Source: Candidatus Thermoflexus tengchongensis
GTDB lineage: Bacteria > Chloroflexota > Anaerolineae > Thermoflexales > Thermoflexaceae
DNA: 32,500 nt
Reading direction: 5' to 3'
Assembly: GCA_016842085.1 (NCBI GenBank)
Contig: JAEVEX010000045.1
Coordinates: forward strand, 1 to 32,500
Below, piece after piece: positions 19,034 to 25,612 of the stretch (the first letter of the stretch is position 1; each line of letters opens with the position of its first letter). The notes under the pieces were generated by a model. That model saw only the letters and a list, made by a program, of their open reading frames with translations. It searched no databases and had not been told where the DNA came from. The translations under genes and the position numbers were made by a program.

Positions 19034-19123
19034 ATCTACCGCCCCGCGGTATGGATTGGGCTCTTTCCCCACGGATGATCGGGGAGAGCAGAGCTGGCCA
19101 TCTGCTCGGGGGAAGCGCCCGTG

Positions 19124-20818
19124 CTATCCGGTTCCGCTCAGCGCGCGAAGGGCGCCGGGGAGCCGGGGGATGAGATCCCCAGCGGTTACGCCGGCCGCCC
19201 CGATCTCCTGACGCGCCCGTTCCCCGGCCAGGCCGTGGAGATAGGCGCCCAGGGCCGCGGCCTCAAACGGCGGCAGGCCCTGCGCCCGCAATCCGGCGAT
19301 CGCCCCCGCCAGCACATCCCCTGTCCCCGCAGTGGCCATCGCGGGGTTCGCGAAGGGCATCACCAGCGCTCGCCCATCGGGGGCGGCCACCACGGTGAAT
19401 GCCCCTTTCAGCACGACCACGTGGCCCCAGGACTGCGCGAATTGTCGCGCGATCCCCAGGCGGTCCTGCTCGATGGCCGCTTTCTCCAATCCGGTCAGCC
19501 GGGCCATCTCGCCGGGATGGGGGGTGAGGATCGCCGGGCCGGGCAGGCGGGCCGCCCAGTCTTTCGCCTGGGCGAGGGCGTTCAACCCATCCGCATCCAC
19601 GATCAGCGGGGGCCAGGTGAAGGAAGGCGCCGCCGGCTTCACCGCTTCCTCCTCTTCAACATGAAAACCGATGCGGCCCCGTCGCATGGCCCGCTCCAGT
19701 CCAAACATCCCGTGCACAAAGGCGATGGCCTCTTTCTCCTGGGTCAGCCCTGGACCCAGCACCATCGCGGCGTAGCCTTCGACGGCCCTGGCCAGGACCT
19801 CCACCGCGTCCGGGGTCAGGACCCCGAGCTCATCCGGCAGCAGGATGTAGGTGATCTCGGTGGTTTTCGCCGCCAGGACGGGATAAATCGCCCGGGGGAT
19901 AGCCAGGGTCACCCAGCCTGCGCCGACCCGCGCTGCTGCCTGAGCGGCCAGCCAGGGCGCGCCGGGGTAGTTAATGGAGCCAGCGACCACCGCCACTTTC
20001 CCGAACGTGTTTTTATGCGCATCCGATGGGCGGGGTGGGCACCACGTGCGGGCCGTGGCCACGTCCATCACTTCGAAAGCGCCCTCCGGCACCCACTTCG
20101 CCTCGATCCCGATATCGGCCACCGCCAGCTCGCCGACCGCATGGGCGGCCGGGAACCGGAAATGTCCGACCTTCGGATGGGCGAATGTTACCGTGAGATC
20201 CGCGTGAAACGCATGGGGATCCAGTTCCCCCGTGTCGTAGTTCATCCCGGTCGGCCCATCCACGGCCACCAGCCAGGGCTCCGGCGGCGTTCGCGGAGGC
20301 CATGCGCTCGGAGTGAAAGGGGGGCCCGGGGCGAAGAACGAAACCGGCCACGGCCGTCGATCGCTCACCTCCGCCCGCACGATCTGAAGCATGCGGAGGA
20401 GATCCCCTTCCAGGGGCCGGGTGGTCCCGGTTCCCAGCAGGGCGTCGATGATCACTGCAGCGCTTCGAACCCAGAGGCGCAGCACCCGCCATGTCCGGTC
20501 ATCCGCTGCCTGGGCGATAAAACAGCCTGCCGCTTTCGCTCCCTGGAAAACCGGGTCGGTTTCCTCGCGAGGCCTCAACAGATAGCAGGCCACCTCCGCT
20601 CCGGCCTCCTTGAGAAAGCGGGCGGCGGTCAGGCCATCGCCGCCGTTGTTCCCGGGGCCTACCAGCACCAGGATGCGGCGGCCCTGAACGGACATCCGTC
20701 GCATGATCTCGGAGGCCACGGCGTGGCCAGCCCGCTCCATCATTCGCGCATAGGTATGGCCTGCCGCATCCGCGGCCGCTTCCGCCTGACGCATCTGAGC
20801 CACGGTCAGCACTTTCAT
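19124..20818 (-). CDS. nnr: Bifunctional NAD(P)H-hydrate epimerase / ADP-dependent NAD(P)H-hydrate dehydratase
   Basis: Repairs hydrated NADH and NADPH in the cytoplasm. The 564-residue protein has an N-terminal YjeF_N epimerase domain (about 1-260) with GPGNNGGDGL near 54-63, a DALLGTG motif and DGPTGMNYDTGE, then a ribokinase-like dehydratase domain (about 275-564) with KNTFGKVAVVAGS, MVLGPGL, DADGLNAL, TPHPGEMARL and the phosphate-binding AGTGDVLAG near 495. Both halves keep their key motifs. The epimerase half has a proline-rich insert (about 165-195) before DGPTG and the dehydratase half an acidic insert (HVEEEEAVK). ATG 20818 has GAGGAG upstream. Its 3' end lies 90 bp from the NMNAT-like gene, so the two NAD-related genes may be co-transcribed. 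Confidence 0.93.
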   Translation of the reverse strand: MKVLTVAQMRQAEAAADAAGHTYARMMERAGHAVASEIMRRMSVQGRRILVLVGPGNNGGDGLTAARFLKEAGAEVACYLLRPREETDPVFQGAKAAGCFIAQAADDRTWRVLRLWVRSAAVIIDALLGTGTTRPLEGDLLRMLQIVRAEVSDRRPWPVSFFAPGPPFTPSAWPPRTPPEPWLVAVDGPTGMNYDTGELDPHAFHADLTVTFAHPKVGHFRFPAAHAVGELAVADIGIEAKWVPEGAFEVMDVATARTWCPPRPSDAHKNTFGKVAVVAGSINYPGAPWLAAQAAARVGAGWVTLAIPRAIYPVLAAKTTEITYILLPDELGVLTPDAVEVLARAVEGYAAMVLGPGLTQEKEAIAFVHGMFGLERAMRRGRIGFHVEEEEAVKPAAPSFTWPPLIVDADGLNALAQAKDWAARLPGPAILTPHPGEMARLTGLEKAAIEQDRLGIARQFAQSWGHVVVLKGAFTVVAAPDGRALVMPFANPAMATAGTGDVLAGAIAGLRAQGLPPFEAAALGAYLHGLAGERARQEIGAAGVTAGDLIPRLPGALRALSGTG

Positions 20819-20888
20819 CGCTTCAGCTCCTCAACCGTCATGGTGCTTTGCCTGGTTCGATCCGGGCTGATCGGCCCGAAAGATGCCC

Positions 20889-20916
20889 GGAGTTGGAGGG
20901 CTGCCGAAGATAGCCC
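20889..20916. repeat. Second copy of the short motif found in the 5372-5406 terminator
   Basis: This stretch contains CTGCCGAAGATAGCCC, matching CTACCGAAGATAGCCC at 5383-5398 at 15 of 16 positions, preceded in both copies by a GTTGG-and-G-rich arm. Here the outer stem is weak (GGGCT/AGCCC only) and no T run follows. It lies directly before the palindromic array. Confidence 0.45.
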
Positions 20917-20938
20917 GGAACCGCTCTATGAGCCCCGA

Positions 20939-21272
20939 CCCTGGTCGCCGCTGAAGCGGCTCCTACCGGTTACAACCATCCCGGCGAGGCCACCGGGTAG
21001 GAGGGGCTTCAGCCCCGACAGCTTCAGCCCCGACGGCTTCAGCCCTGACCCTTAAGGTCACCGCTGAAGCGGGCTCCTACCGGTTACAACCATCCCGGCG
21101 AGGCCACCGGGTAGGAGGGGCTTCAGCCCCGACAGCTTCAGCCCCGACGGCTTCAGCCCTGACCCTTAAGGTCGCCGCTGAAGCGGCTCCTACCCGGCTT
21201 ACGATCGACCGCCTGGTAAGGCCACCGGTAGGAGCCCCGACTTTAGCCCCGACGGCTTTCGCCCCGACCTTC
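20939..21272. repeat. REP/BIME-like palindromic repeat array (three 113-114-bp units)
   Basis: Units start at 20943, 21056 and 21170. Each has a left hairpin GCCGCTGAAGCGGC followed by CTCCTAC, a spacer of about 30 bp, then GTAGGAG with the hairpin GGGGCTTCAGCCCC, so the two hairpins face each other with GTAG/CTAC at their heads. Units 1 and 2 add short tandem copies of GCTTCAGCCCCGACG and end in CCCTTAA. Units 1 and 2 are nearly identical; unit 3 is degenerate. The GTAG-headed hairpins resemble REP sequences mobilised by TnpA-REP (RAYT) proteins, but no such gene is in the window. The array fills the divergent gap between the nnr gene and the ASCH gene. Confidence 0.8.
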
Positions 21273-21384: not shown

Positions 21385-21771
21385 ATGGAGATGCGCCCGG
21401 AGCTGGGTTTGATCGTGCAGGAGCCCTATGCGACCTACATCGTCTCCGGCGAGAAGACGTGGGAGATCCGCCGGTATCCCACCCACATCCGGGGGCGCAT
21501 CGGGATCATCAGCCACCGGGGATGGATCGGGACCGCCGTGCTCACCGAAGTCCGGGGCCCCGTCCCGGTGGAAGCCCTCCGGCGGAAGTTCCCTCAGCAC
21601 CGGGCGGATCCGGAGTTTCTGGAGGCCTACGCGCGGGGCCGGCCGCTTTACATCTGGGTGCTCACGGACCCTCAGCGCTTCCCGGAGCCGATCCCGATCC
21701 ATCGCCCGCGGGGGCCAGTGGTCTGGATCCGGCTGGAGGAAGCACTGACGGAGAGAACGTATAAGCGGTAG
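21385..21771 (+). CDS. ASCH-domain protein (PUA-like fold)
   Basis: Small cytoplasmic protein of 128 residues that looks like an ASCH domain, a PUA-related fold linked with RNA binding or base modification (one characterised member, YqfB, removes acetyl groups from N4-acetylcytidine). Family features are the start LGLIVQEPYATYIVSGEKTW, with GxKxWE, then EIRRYPTHIRGRIGI (basic strand) and a beta-rich middle with WIGTAVLTEV. The function of this member is not known. GAGGGGG lies just before ATG 21385; ATG 21391 is also possible. An AT-rich patch (TAAAATATAC, 21333-21342) upstream may hold its -10 region. It is tail to tail with the GNAT-ABC gene. Confidence 0.7.
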   Translation: MEMRPELGLIVQEPYATYIVSGEKTWEIRRYPTHIRGRIGIISHRGWIGTAVLTEVRGPVPVEALRRKFPQHRADPEFLEAYARGRPLYIWVLTDPQRFPEPIPIHRPRGPVVWIRLEEALTERTYKR

Positions 21772-21841: not shown

Positions 21842-23761
21842 TTATTTCCCTCGGGCCGACACCCGGAACAGGCCGTAACCAGCGATCAGGGTGAGATCGG
21901 GCTCCAGACCCTGGATGACCTCCGGGCGATGGGTGGCGGCGATGAGGGTGATGCCGTGCTGGCGGCAGAGGGCGGCCACCTTGCGGGCCACCCGCAACGC
22001 CATCTGGGGATCCAGGTGGGCGGCGAACTCATCGATCAGCAGGAGGTTCGGCCGCCGGGCTAAAAGATAAGCGATGCGGGCACGCTCCTTCTGCCCGGTG
22101 GAGAGCTCGGAGAAGCGCGCGCGATAAAGCACCGCATCGGCAATTCCAGCGACGTTCAGGACCTCGATCGCCAGCACCTCGTCCTCGGTCAGACGATAAA
22201 GGGCCTCCAGGATCGTTTCCCCATCGAACTCCGGCTCGACCTCGCCCGGCAGATAGGCGGCGGCCTGCACGTTCTCCGGCATCTCGATCCGGCCGAACTG
22301 CACCCGATACAGCGGATCCCGCCGCCCGGTCGCGGCGCCGTAAAGCAGGCGCAGCAGCGTGGTTTTCCCCGCCCCGGAAGCGCCGATCAGCGCCACGATC
22401 TGCCGCGGGTGGATGGTCAGCGAGACGTCTTTCAAAACGATCTTTTGAATGGTTCGCTCGTGGACCCCGAAGGCTTCCAGGATCTCATGGAGCGGTGGGG
22501 CCATTCCACTCAGGCTCAGTGTGTTTTCGTAACGATAAGTGACATGGTGCAGGCGGATCGGCCCGGCCAGCGGCTCGACGGATCGGAAAGCCGGGCGATA
22601 CAGCTTCCCCTGATGGACGCGCGCGACGGGGTCGGTTTCGTAAAATCGCTCCAGGTAGGGGAGCGCCTCGTCTTCCAGAGGATATACCAGCACGGGACGG
22701 CCGGAGGCTGTATCCCCGAGGTAGCGAAAGCCGGACCGCTCCATGAACGGGTTGTAGCGCGCCATCTGGGCGATGGTCTCCAGAACGACCTTGGGCCGGC
22801 GCATCTCCGGGATACGCCGCTCCCGGATCCAGGCGATGGCCGCTCGCAGGGCCAGCTGTCCCAGGCCCTCCGCCCGGTAATCCGGATGAACCACCACGCG
22901 GGCCAGGCGGGCCCCCCGCGTGTTGCAGGTTCGGAGGGCGATTTCCTGGGATTCCCACCACAGATCAAAGGGGGAGAGATCCGGCCGCTCCCGCTTCAGC
23001 TCTTCCTCCAGCCGCTCCGGCCAGAAGGAGGGCTCGAACCAGTCCGCGGGGAAAACCGCCTGCCGCAGGTTGGGCTGGATCGTGCCATCGGGCAGGCGGC
23101 GATGCATCATCGGGATCGGCGGATCGATCCGCACATACCCGATGTAGAGCGGCTCGTAGGGGGCGCGATCCTCCAGGAGCAGCACCAGGAAACGGGAGGC
23201 GCGGGTGGCGTCTTTCAGATCGCCGAAGCGCATGGGGCGTCGGCAGCGCGGGCAGAGCGGCCGGGCGTTGGCCTCCGCCCATGTTCGATCCTCCGGGCAC
23301 CACCAGCGGGCCAGGATCTCCGCCTCCGAGGCGTAGTGATGCTGCTCCAGATCGACGATCGCCTCGAAATCCGATTCCAGCCCGGCTTCCCGGGCGAGCA
23401 CCGTGTAGCGATAAAGGGGCGTCGTGGAGAGCGGCGAGGAGCGTTCCAGGGTGAACCGCTCCTGATAAAAGGGCCAGATCAGGACGGCTTCTCCATCCAC
23501 GACGCGCCAGAGCGTATAGGCATCAAATGTGAGCGCCCGTGGATCCGCCTGCGGTTCCAGAGCCACCCGGACCTCCTCGCCGGGTTGAAACCACTGAGCC
23601 ACAGTCCCCGTCATCGGGAGGCGAAGACGCCCTGCCTCTCCTTCGACTTCCAGCATCCCGAACCAGCGATACCGGAAGCGATCCAGCCAGACCTGGAGCA
23701 CCCGGTAAGGCCTGGATTCTTTCCACGGATCAGAACGTTCGGATGCGCGCGGATCGGTCAC
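21842..23761 (-). CDS. ABC-type ATPase fused to an acetyltransferase (GNAT) domain, COG2401-like
   Basis: Soluble 639-residue fusion of unknown function. An N-terminal region (about 1-150) is followed by a partial zinc ribbon (Cys155 in WWCPED, then CPRC at 170-173), a GNAT domain with VVVHPDYRAEGLGQLALR (about 289-306, the acetyl-CoA loop RAEGLG), and a C-terminal ABC ATPase with Walker A GASGAGKT (about 457), signature LSTGQKERARI (about 549), Walker B LLLIDEF with the catalytic Glu (about 571-577) and switch His in ATHRPE. No membrane segment is present, so it is not a transporter. The same architecture is known as an ABC ATPase fused to a predicted acetyltransferase, mostly in archaea. 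GTG 23761 is preferred (GGAGGGAG at 23768-23775); ATG 23878 would overlap sfsA. Confidence 0.8.
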   Translation of the reverse strand: MTDPRASERSDPWKESRPYRVLQVWLDRFRYRWFGMLEVEGEAGRLRLPMTGTVAQWFQPGEEVRVALEPQADPRALTFDAYTLWRVVDGEAVLIWPFYQERFTLERSSPLSTTPLYRYTVLAREAGLESDFEAIVDLEQHHYASEAEILARWWCPEDRTWAEANARPLCPRCRRPMRFGDLKDATRASRFLVLLLEDRAPYEPLYIGYVRIDPPIPMMHRRLPDGTIQPNLRQAVFPADWFEPSFWPERLEEELKRERPDLSPFDLWWESQEIALRTCNTRGARLARVVVHPDYRAEGLGQLALRAAIAWIRERRIPEMRRPKVVLETIAQMARYNPFMERSGFRYLGDTASGRPVLVYPLEDEALPYLERFYETDPVARVHQGKLYRPAFRSVEPLAGPIRLHHVTYRYENTLSLSGMAPPLHEILEAFGVHERTIQKIVLKDVSLTIHPRQIVALIGASGAGKTTLLRLLYGAATGRRDPLYRVQFGRIEMPENVQAAAYLPGEVEPEFDGETILEALYRLTEDEVLAIEVLNVAGIADAVLYRARFSELSTGQKERARIAYLLARRPNLLLIDEFAAHLDPQMALRVARKVAALCRQHGITLIAATHRPEVIQGLEPDLTLIAGYGLFRVSARGK

Positions 23762-23820: not shown

Positions 23821-24528
23821 CTATAGAAGCACCGGGATGGGATCGGTCAGGCGGATCTCCTCCAGGGAGACCTCGCATCGATAAGCGAGGATCTGAACGC
23901 CATGGGCCGCGGCGGCCCGCAGGATCCGCCCGAAATCTGGATCCGCCTGATCATGAGGCCGAAACGCCCGGGCATCCGGCCGCTGCACGACGAAGAGCGC
24001 GAAAGCCTGAATGCCGTCCGCGCGCGCTTCTATCAGCGCGGCCATATGGCGCCGCCCTCGCACCGTGGGCGCGTCCGGGAACAGGCCGATGCCGTCTTCC
24101 ACCAGCGTCACGCTTTTCACTTCCACATAGGCCACGCCCTCGGAGCCCGAGAGGCGGAAATCCACCCGACCCTCTCCCAGGGGAACCTCCGCCTCCAGGG
24201 TGGTGTAGGCCTGAAAGGGCGGAAGCTCGCCCCTCTCCCAGGCCTCCCGGAACAGGAAATTGGGCACCCGCGCATCGGCGGACACCAGCGTTCCATCCGG
24301 CAGGCCTACTACCTGGAGATCATAATGGGTTCGCCGCTGACCCTCCCGCCGGGCCATCCATATGGGATAGCCGGGGACCAGGAGTTCATGCAGGCGGCCG
24401 GAATTCGGGAGATGGGCCGGCACCCGTTGCCGCCCCAGACGCACTTCCACCGCGAATCGGTTCAAACGACGCAGGAAAACCCCCGGAATCAGCGGCGGCC
24501 AGCGCATGGTGTCTGGTTTGCCTGGCAT
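23821..24528 (-). CDS. sfsA: SfsA family protein (DNA/RNA nuclease-like)
   Basis: SfsA homologue of 235 residues (family length about 230). SfsA was first noted as a sugar fermentation stimulation protein in E. coli and has an OB-like N-terminal domain plus a nuclease-type fold. Here the N-terminal part PPLIPGVFLRRLNRFAVEV and LPNSGRLHELLVPG match the family, as do RVDFRLSG and VEVKSVTLVEDGIGLFPDAP, which hold the acidic and Lys residues of the nuclease-like site. The start is not certain: ATG 24528 lies 7 bp after the queA stop, while ATG 24507 begins exactly at the conserved region; neither has a good ribosome site. It is the fourth gene of the minus-strand operon. Confidence 0.9.
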   Translation of the reverse strand: MPGKPDTMRWPPLIPGVFLRRLNRFAVEVRLGRQRVPAHLPNSGRLHELLVPGYPIWMARREGQRRTHYDLQVVGLPDGTLVSADARVPNFLFREAWERGELPPFQAYTTLEAEVPLGEGRVDFRLSGSEGVAYVEVKSVTLVEDGIGLFPDAPTVRGRRHMAALIEARADGIQAFALFVVQRPDARAFRPHDQADPDFGRILRAAAAHGVQILAYRCEVSLEEIRLTDPIPVLL

Positions 24529-24535
24529 AAGGGGA

Positions 24536-25612
24536 TCAGAGGATCAGCATGGCGTCCCCGAAGGAGTAGAAGCGATAGCCTTCGGCGATCGCTACTTGAT
24601 AAGCCTCCCGCATCCGTTCATAGCCCATGAAAGCGGCCACCAGCAGCAACAGCGTGGAGCGTGGCAGATGGAAGTTGGTGATCAGGGCATCCACCACCCG
24701 GAATTCAAAGCCGGGATAGATGAAGAGATCCGTTTCCCCCTCAAAAGGTCCCACAACCTGCCATGGGCAAACGGCCTCCGGCGAGCATCCCAGCCCGTAG
24801 CGGGCGGCGGTCTCCAGAACCCGCACCACGGTGGTGCCCACGGCAATGATCCGGCCCCCCTCCAGCCGTGTCCGGTTGATGAGCGCGGCGGTATCCGCCG
24901 ACAGGGAGCACCATTCCCGGTGCAGTTTGTGTTCCCGCACGTCCGGAGTCTCAATCGGACGAAAGGTGTCGAGGCTGATGTGGAGCGTGACGAAGGCGAG
25001 GCGGACGCCGTGATCCCGCAGGCGGGCGAGAAGCTCCGGGGTGAAATGCAGCCCCGCCGTGGGCGCGGCCACCGAGCCGGGAACCCGGGCGTAGACGGTC
25101 TGGTAGCGTTCCGGATCGTGAAGCGGCCGCCGGATGTAAGGGGGGAGAGGGATCACCCCCAGCCGTTCCAGCCATCCTTCCGGGGGGATGGAAAAGCGAA
25201 GCAGGCGGAGCGGCCCCTCGCCCTCGGCCTCCACTTCCGCGTAGAGATCGACGGGCTGGCTGCCGGAGAGCAGCTGGAGGCGCGTTCCGGGGCGGATATG
25301 ACGCCCCCGCACCATCGCCCACCATCGCTCCGGATCCACCCGGCGCACCAGCAACAGTTCCACCCGTCCCCCCGTCGGCTTCACCGCGAACAAACGGGCC
25401 GGGATCACCCGCGTGTCGTTGAACACCAGCAGATCCCCGGGGCGCAGGTAGTCGACGATCTCCCGGAAGATCCGGTGCTCGATCCGCCCCGTCGCCCGAT
25501 GCACCACCATCAACCGCGCGGCGTCCCGTGGCTCCATCGGGGACTGGGCGATCCGCTCCGGGGGCAATTCGTAATCATAGGCTTCAAGGCTCAGGAGATC
25601 CTTCGGCTCCAT
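24536..25612 (-). CDS. queA: S-adenosylmethionine:tRNA ribosyltransferase-isomerase
   Basis: Transfers the ribosyl group of SAM to 7-aminomethyl-7-deazaguanine in tRNA, giving epoxyqueuosine in the wobble position of GUN-anticodon tRNAs. The 358-residue protein shows the family landmarks YDYELPPERIAQ near the N-terminus, DLLVFNDTRVIPARL (about 60-74), PPYI, TAGLHFT (about 186-192), VREHKLH, IAVGTTVVRVLE and the C-terminal ITNFHLPRSTLLLLVAAF, all typical of QueA. ATG 25612 overlaps the upstream DUF3109-like gene by 29 bp, so expression is likely coupled. No other queuosine genes (queC-F, tgt, queG) are in the window. Confidence 0.96.
   Translation of the reverse strand: MEPKDLLSLEAYDYELPPERIAQSPMEPRDAARLMVVHRATGRIEHRIFREIVDYLRPGDLLVFNDTRVIPARLFAVKPTGGRVELLLVRRVDPERWWAMVRGRHIRPGTRLQLLSGSQPVDLYAEVEAEGEGPLRLLRFSIPPEGWLERLGVIPLPPYIRRPLHDPERYQTVYARVPGSVAAPTAGLHFTPELLARLRDHGVRLAFVTLHISLDTFRPIETPDVREHKLHREWCSLSADTAALINRTRLEGGRIIAVGTTVVRVLETAARYGLGCSPEAVCPWQVVGPFEGETDLFIYPGFEFRVVDALITNFHLPRSTLLLLVAAFMGYERMREAYQVAIAEGYRFYSFGDAMLIL

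Follow-up and report, generated by a model that had tools for sequence, protein, structure and literature searches.

An ABC-type ATPase joined to a GNAT acetyltransferase on one chain already has a name in sequence annotation, "MK0520, ABC-type ATPase fused to a predicted acetyltransferase" (a family that we take to be COG2401), and this name is also attached to a homologous phage gene. TmcA is a precedent for the coupling of an ATPase to a GNAT on RNA, and TmcA and Nat10, which join both domains on one chain, offer an analogy in the mode of action; their ATPase, however, is a RecD-type helicase, and Sas-Chen and colleagues are said to have ascribed, in 2020, all ac4C of Thermococcus to the Nat10/TmcA homologue. 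In (PIN)-GNAT-EVE operons, a GNAT, a PUA-like domain, an ASCH protein and an AAA_17 ATPase are found together (PMC7641849).

We report here a locus of Candidatus Thermoflexus tengchongensis, located in a window of 32,500 nt (the whole stretch of DNA analyzed), that encodes a GNAT-ABC fusion protein and, convergent with it, an ASCH-domain protein (Table 1). By its domain pair, the fusion is a member of the MK0520 family, an assignment that concerns the annotation name only; the description of that family includes neither an ASCH partner nor a C-terminal ASCH fusion, both of which were found here. Like the (PIN)-GNAT-EVE operons, the Thermoflexus system combines a GNAT and an ATPase with ASCH and a PUA-like domain, but it differs from them in that the ATPase is of the ABC and not the AAA_17 type, EVE and PIN domains are absent, and the gene is near-universal and single-copy in Thermococcales. 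A search of the open literature, which makes up part of all publications, returned no paper on the GNAT-ABC family or its link to ASCH, and no assigned function was found for this fusion. The family name is known from annotation; what is new, to the extent tested, is the pairing with ASCH and the fusion of all three parts.

Table 1. Features of the GNAT-ABC/ASCH locus, with positions in the 32,500-nt window
Feature	Positions	Strand	Basis
GNAT-ABC ATPase fusion gene, 639 aa, GTG start	21842..23761	-	Stop-free translation, Pfam, AlphaFold, homology to 80 loci, full or partial
N-terminal beta-rich domain, residues about 17-100	23462..23713	-	AlphaFold, pLDDT >90 here
GNAT domain, residues about 112-361; LEQxHYA, RxxGxG, MARYNPFxE conserved	22679..23428	-	Pfam, invariant columns, predicted topology
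Zinc ribbon inside GNAT, residues about 149-181, CPED..CPRC	23219..23317	-	Alignment; weak Pfam zinc-ribbon matches, Thermococcus relative
ABC ATPase, residues about 402-636; GASGAGKTT, LSTGQ, LLIDEF, PGExEP	21854..22558	-	Pfam, structure search, alignment
ASCH-domain protein, GEKTWEIR motif	21385..21771	+	PF04266, E 5.8e-8; convergent neighbor of GNAT-ABC
sfsA (DNA/RNA nuclease SfsA)	23821..24528	-	Directly upstream of GNAT-ABC gene
queA (tRNA queuosine synthesis)	24536..25612	-	Upstream of sfsA

The reading frame of the fusion, from 23761 to 21842, contains no internal stop, and its start codon is preceded, at a spacing of about 8 nt, by GGAGG, a putative ribosome-binding site; an alternative ATG at 23878 would yield a longer frame running into sfsA. 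The part of the protein outside the ABC domain is conserved at 45-97% identity across 80 bacterial and archaeal loci, which excludes a chance frame, and the gene is confirmed as genuinely coding. A GNAT domain and a complete soluble ABC ATPase lie on the one chain, as the initial annotation had proposed, according to both Pfam (GNAT PF00583 above the cut-off, ABC_tran PF00005 with an E value of 1.5e-18) and an AlphaFold model (m99294c228d7b; pLDDT 92, pTM 0.87), from the predicted secondary structure of which the domain boundaries were read off. The zinc ribbon had been correctly described as one Cys short, but it is not the separate segment it was taken for: in the predicted secondary structure, it splits the GNAT fold, following a helix (129-139), occupying residues about 150-180 and preceding strands at 190-213, and a further, beta-rich domain stands at the N-terminus. 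The residue lost in Thermoflexus is the second ribbon Cys (CPED); Cys is present there in 41 of the 54 archaeal and 19 of the 33 bacterial alignment rows. Most relatives have a complete ribbon (CxxC..CxxC/H), with CxxC at the site of the window's CPED in most archaeal and ASCH-fused bacterial relatives. In two Diapherotrites members, the ribbon is almost wholly gone, and zinc is therefore dispensable in places.

Across 87 aligned sequences, the Walker A motif, the LSTGQ signature and the DE of Walker B are essentially invariant, and RxxGxG, matching the acetyl-CoA loop of GNAT acetyltransferases (R/QxxGxG/A), is found in every row; MARYNPFxE and LEQxHYA are further hallmarks of the family. The Q-loop position holds PGExEP, in which P505, E509 and P510 are invariant and E507 is replaced once by Asp, and the H-loop has His in all bacterial rows and His or Asn in archaeal rows. 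With Walker A, the signature, Walker B including the catalytic Glu, and no membrane domain, the ATPase is of the soluble ABC type. The acetyl-CoA-binding residues, singled out in the initial annotation as decisive for enzymatic acetylation, are intact, as are the ATP motifs and, judged by these motifs, the GNAT-ABC protein looks enzymatically active. The best PDB sequence match for the ABC domain was methyl-CoM reductase component A2 (8s7v_K), and structure searches of PDB and BFVD gave matches dominated by this domain. The protein has a single ABC domain, versus the two joined by a P-tRNA interaction linker in ABC-F translation factors. It also differs from TmcA/Nat10, with their helicase and GNAT_acetyltr_2 domains: no TmcA domain was detected above the cut-off, the only match being to PF13718 (E 0.066). 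Because the ac4C of Thermococcus is reportedly made by the Nat10/TmcA homologue, ac4C is an unlikely product of the GNAT-ABC protein.

In 84,980 scanned species genomes, 179 relatives were found, the best 80 of which come mostly from hyperthermophilic archaea, along with thermophilic bacteria, where the family is patchy; the initial annotation was right to describe it as mainly archaeal and uncharacterized. Archaeal relatives are 45-53% identical to the Thermoflexus protein. The gene was detected in 58 of the 115 genomes of the Thermococci phylum, seemingly covering the whole of the Thermococcales, where it is in single copy, as well as in 14/250 genomes of Thermoproteota and 12/197 of the Archaeoglobi phylum, and whole-genome search identified a full-length form in 7 of 400 Chloroflexota genomes. 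All five sampled Thermoflexus genomes have the gene. The 16S GC content, a proxy for growth temperature, is 0.647-0.676 in four carriers versus 0.52-0.59 in 15 of the 17 non-carriers, with the caveat that the 16S of one non-carrier (G010) may be misplaced, given the odd position of the motif.

In a phylogenetic tree, built from the best matches only and unrooted, hence silent on the direction of any ancient transfer, a branch with 100% support parts 30 bacterial from 48 archaeal rows. This split, the third-position GC content (GC3) of the gene, which is the same as that of its neighbors, and the presence of the gene in 5/5 Thermoflexus genomes all argue against the recent transfer from archaea raised in the initial annotation, and recent archaeal acquisition was rejected. 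Wide vertical presence in Chloroflexota, proposed as a check on such transfer, was not observed, the distribution there being patchy; even so, a recent archaeal origin gains no support, because the tree separates bacteria from archaea. An ancient transfer may have occurred. Two Bipolaricaulota metagenome-assembled genomes cluster with Thermoflexus, and other Bipolaricaulota have the ASCH-fused form; the sequences suggest that the gene has moved between bacteria.

The ASCH gene, which the initial annotation had not mentioned, starts with ATG at 21385, preceded by GAGGGG, in a frame open from 21301, and its product belongs to the ASCH superfamily by PF04266 and the GxKxxExR motif. In an all-against-all comparison of gene neighborhoods, ASCH was the commonest recurring family, with 20 adjacent loci. 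The arrangement varies: ASCH is convergent with GNAT-ABC in Thermoflexus, Thermomicrobium roseum, other Thermomicrobia and some Bipolaricaulota; co-directional and immediately upstream in six archaeal loci; divergent in 10 of the 11 Archaeoglobi genomes, at a distance of 43-82 bp; and fused to the GNAT-ABC C-terminus in 18 bacterial loci, so that in one bacterial branch the system is a single chain. In two Thermoflexus genomes, both genes are present about 75 kb apart. Within Chloroflexota, the 7 of 400 genomes with ASCH are precisely those with GNAT-ABC. In the Thermococci phylum (115 genomes), it accompanies 57 of the 58 carriers, with one GNAT-ABC-only genome and four ASCH-only genomes, mostly small assemblies, and in the Archaeoglobi phylum (197 genomes) 11 of the 12, with one GNAT-ABC-only and no ASCH-only genome. 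Co-occurrence is significant in each of the three phyla (p <1e-14, by statistics that ignore kinship), and the evolutionary distances among the ASCH proteins track those among the GNAT-ABC proteins (r 0.80, 0/5000 permutations). The ASCH partner is almost obligatory in Chloroflexota, Thermococcales and Archaeoglobi; an ASCH of this subfamily was missing from most Thermoproteota carriers (Desulfurococcales, Thermoproteales), and the partner is therefore not required everywhere. Where both are present, the two proteins almost certainly work together.

ASCH domains have a PUA-like fold. Profile comparison assigns the partner to the subfamily of TTHA0113 (E 1e-42) and also matches it to the ASCH domain of human ASC-1; the nearest solved structures are those of the same two proteins (TTHA0113, PDB 1WK2 and 2DP9; human ASC-1 ASCH). 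TTHA0113 and human ASC-1/EOLA1 share the GxKxxExR motif with the partner, but we know of no GNAT-ABC partner for them, and the inclusion of the Thermus protein in the subfamily counts against the explanation that we favor below. EOLA1, which is of the same type, has been proposed to bind RNA, and the GxKxxExR motif to line a base-binding cavity (PMC6803910). The ASCH amidohydrolase YqfB uses a catalytic Lys21-Thr24-Glu74 triad with Thr as the nucleophile (PMC6972931). We considered and rejected a role of the partner as a YqfB-type ac4C hydrolase: with YqfB placed by motif and not by program alignment, the Thr24 site is an invariant Glu, and this replacement of the nucleophile makes a deacetylase of the YqfB type unlikely.

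Phages also encode homologs of both enzymatic domains. In the unrelated SSU5-like phages, Gordonia Jace and Leptospira LE3 (L149, 3333-5550; L150, 2983-4622; L151, 3342-4963), these form a conserved cassette in which a ParB-like gene is immediately followed by the two domains, either on neighboring ABC and GNAT genes or joined in one ABC-GNAT chain; phage relatives also lie near terminase genes. Profile-profile comparison of the phage and cellular domains with hhalign gave probabilities of 99.5% for ABC and 90.7% for GNAT, and two motifs of the Thermoflexus family, the DEF of Walker B and YNPF, recur in the SSU5-like members. In contrast to the cellular family, the phage cassette consists of separate genes or has the ABC-GNAT order, with ParB in place of ASCH and no zinc ribbon. 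The reversed ABC-GNAT order recurs in Thermoproteota contigs (L137-L141), where the protein follows immediately on a gene recognized by eye as coding for a terminase-like large subunit, and these contigs are probably proviruses. In Chloroflexota, two distant GNAT-ABC cousins share the Walker B of the DEF type and lack the ribbon; one of the two adjoins a DrmE-like gene of the DISARM defense system (L033, 3766-8488). These associations point to nucleic acid as a theme common to cellular and viral relatives, and they connect a phage cassette that is still unexplained with the cellular family.

The reading that we put forward, with a probability just short of even, is a two-component, thermophile-associated acetylation system with a nucleic-acid substrate, RNA being likelier than DNA. 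The GNAT domain would pass an acetyl group from acetyl-CoA to the substrate, and the ABC domain would pair with a second copy on ATP, gating where the GNAT domain or the substrate sits. Substrate binding would fall to ASCH together with the zinc ribbon and the N-terminal beta domain; the molecule bound would most likely be structured RNA (tRNA or rRNA), less likely DNA, and ASCH would be a reader or docking subunit that binds nucleic acid or a modified base, not a YqfB-type deacetylase. From motifs and gene associations, we infer ATP-dependent dimerization, acetyl transfer and a nucleic-acid substrate, with RNA preferred over DNA. Among the substrates initially considered (RNA, a nucleoprotein or a translation factor), nucleic acid now appears better supported, at roughly balanced chances, and RNA in particular is rated as less likely than not. 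RNA is put before DNA because the thermophile bias, the zinc ribbon and the ASCH partner fit structured RNA; the phage ParB link fits DNA equally well and so counts against the RNA reading, and GNAT enzymes often modify proteins or small molecules, which speaks against a nucleic-acid substrate altogether. A more specific version, in which GNAT as writer, ABC as motor and ASCH as binder form one complex or chain that places an RNA mark, such as the N6-acetyladenosine (ac6A) of archaeal tRNA, is unlikely, and the case for ac6A as the product is circumstantial: an ac6A-like mass has been reported from the mesophile M. maripaludis (PMC7668247), and the enzyme for ac6A was unknown as of 2018 (PMC6313347). 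The ASCH link offers a concrete two-protein complex, which may prove to be the enzyme that an orphan RNA modification still lacks.

The main competitors of this reading are a protein substrate and modification of DNA. Most GNATs with known substrates act on amines of proteins or small molecules, and the closeness in sequence of the ABC domain to soluble, non-transport ABC proteins is likewise compatible with a protein acetyltransferase, unlikely in our estimate, that would target a ribosomal protein, a translation factor or a chromatin protein and be delivered to a ribonucleoprotein by ASCH; taken alone, however, this account leaves both the near-obligatory PUA-like partner and the ParB partner of the phages unexplained. 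If the substrate were DNA, the pair would acetylate or acylate bases of thermophile chromosomal DNA, whereas the ParB-ABC-GNAT cassette would mark phage DNA against restriction. The ParB-like and terminase genes beside the phage relatives of both domains, the terminase-like gene preceding the permuted Thermoproteota ABC-GNAT and the cousin next to DrmE all favor DNA, as does an ASCH-containing (PIN)-GNAT-EVE system that, according to its citation in PMC7641849, has been proposed as a DNA-base acetylator. We nevertheless regard DNA modification as unlikely: instead of ParB, cellular members bring ASCH, a zinc ribbon and a bias toward thermophiles, and the family is near-universal in Thermococcales without a mobile context. 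Nor did hhalign match it to the DNA-modification GNAT Mom of phage Mu (probability 0.3%); at this level of similarity a Mom relative was rejected, and any relation that exists would be very remote.

The single-copy, nearly universal presence in Thermococcales, again outside mobile contexts, also speaks against a toxin-antitoxin or defense module of the (PIN)-GNAT-EVE kind, in which ASCH would be the antitoxin. GNAT toxins and ASCH proteins do co-occur in such modules (PMC7641849), and the patchy occurrence in Chloroflexota and the distant cousin near DISARM would fit; but ASCH is often unlinked from GNAT-ABC or fused to it in one chain, unlike an antitoxin, and we consider this reading highly improbable. 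The acetylation system with a nucleic-acid substrate remains the one that we prefer.

In the immediate setting of the Thermoflexus gene, GNAT-ABC is immediately preceded by queA and sfsA in 5/5 Thermoflexus genomes and nowhere else among those tested; a conserved link was rejected, the synteny being confined to Thermoflexus, where queA, sfsA and GNAT-ABC possibly form a single operon. No Rfam or tRNA features were found in the window. At 19121-21055 on the plus strand, the window also contains a 644-aa open frame without a Pfam or NCBIfam match, opposite which runs a 564-aa frame on the other strand.
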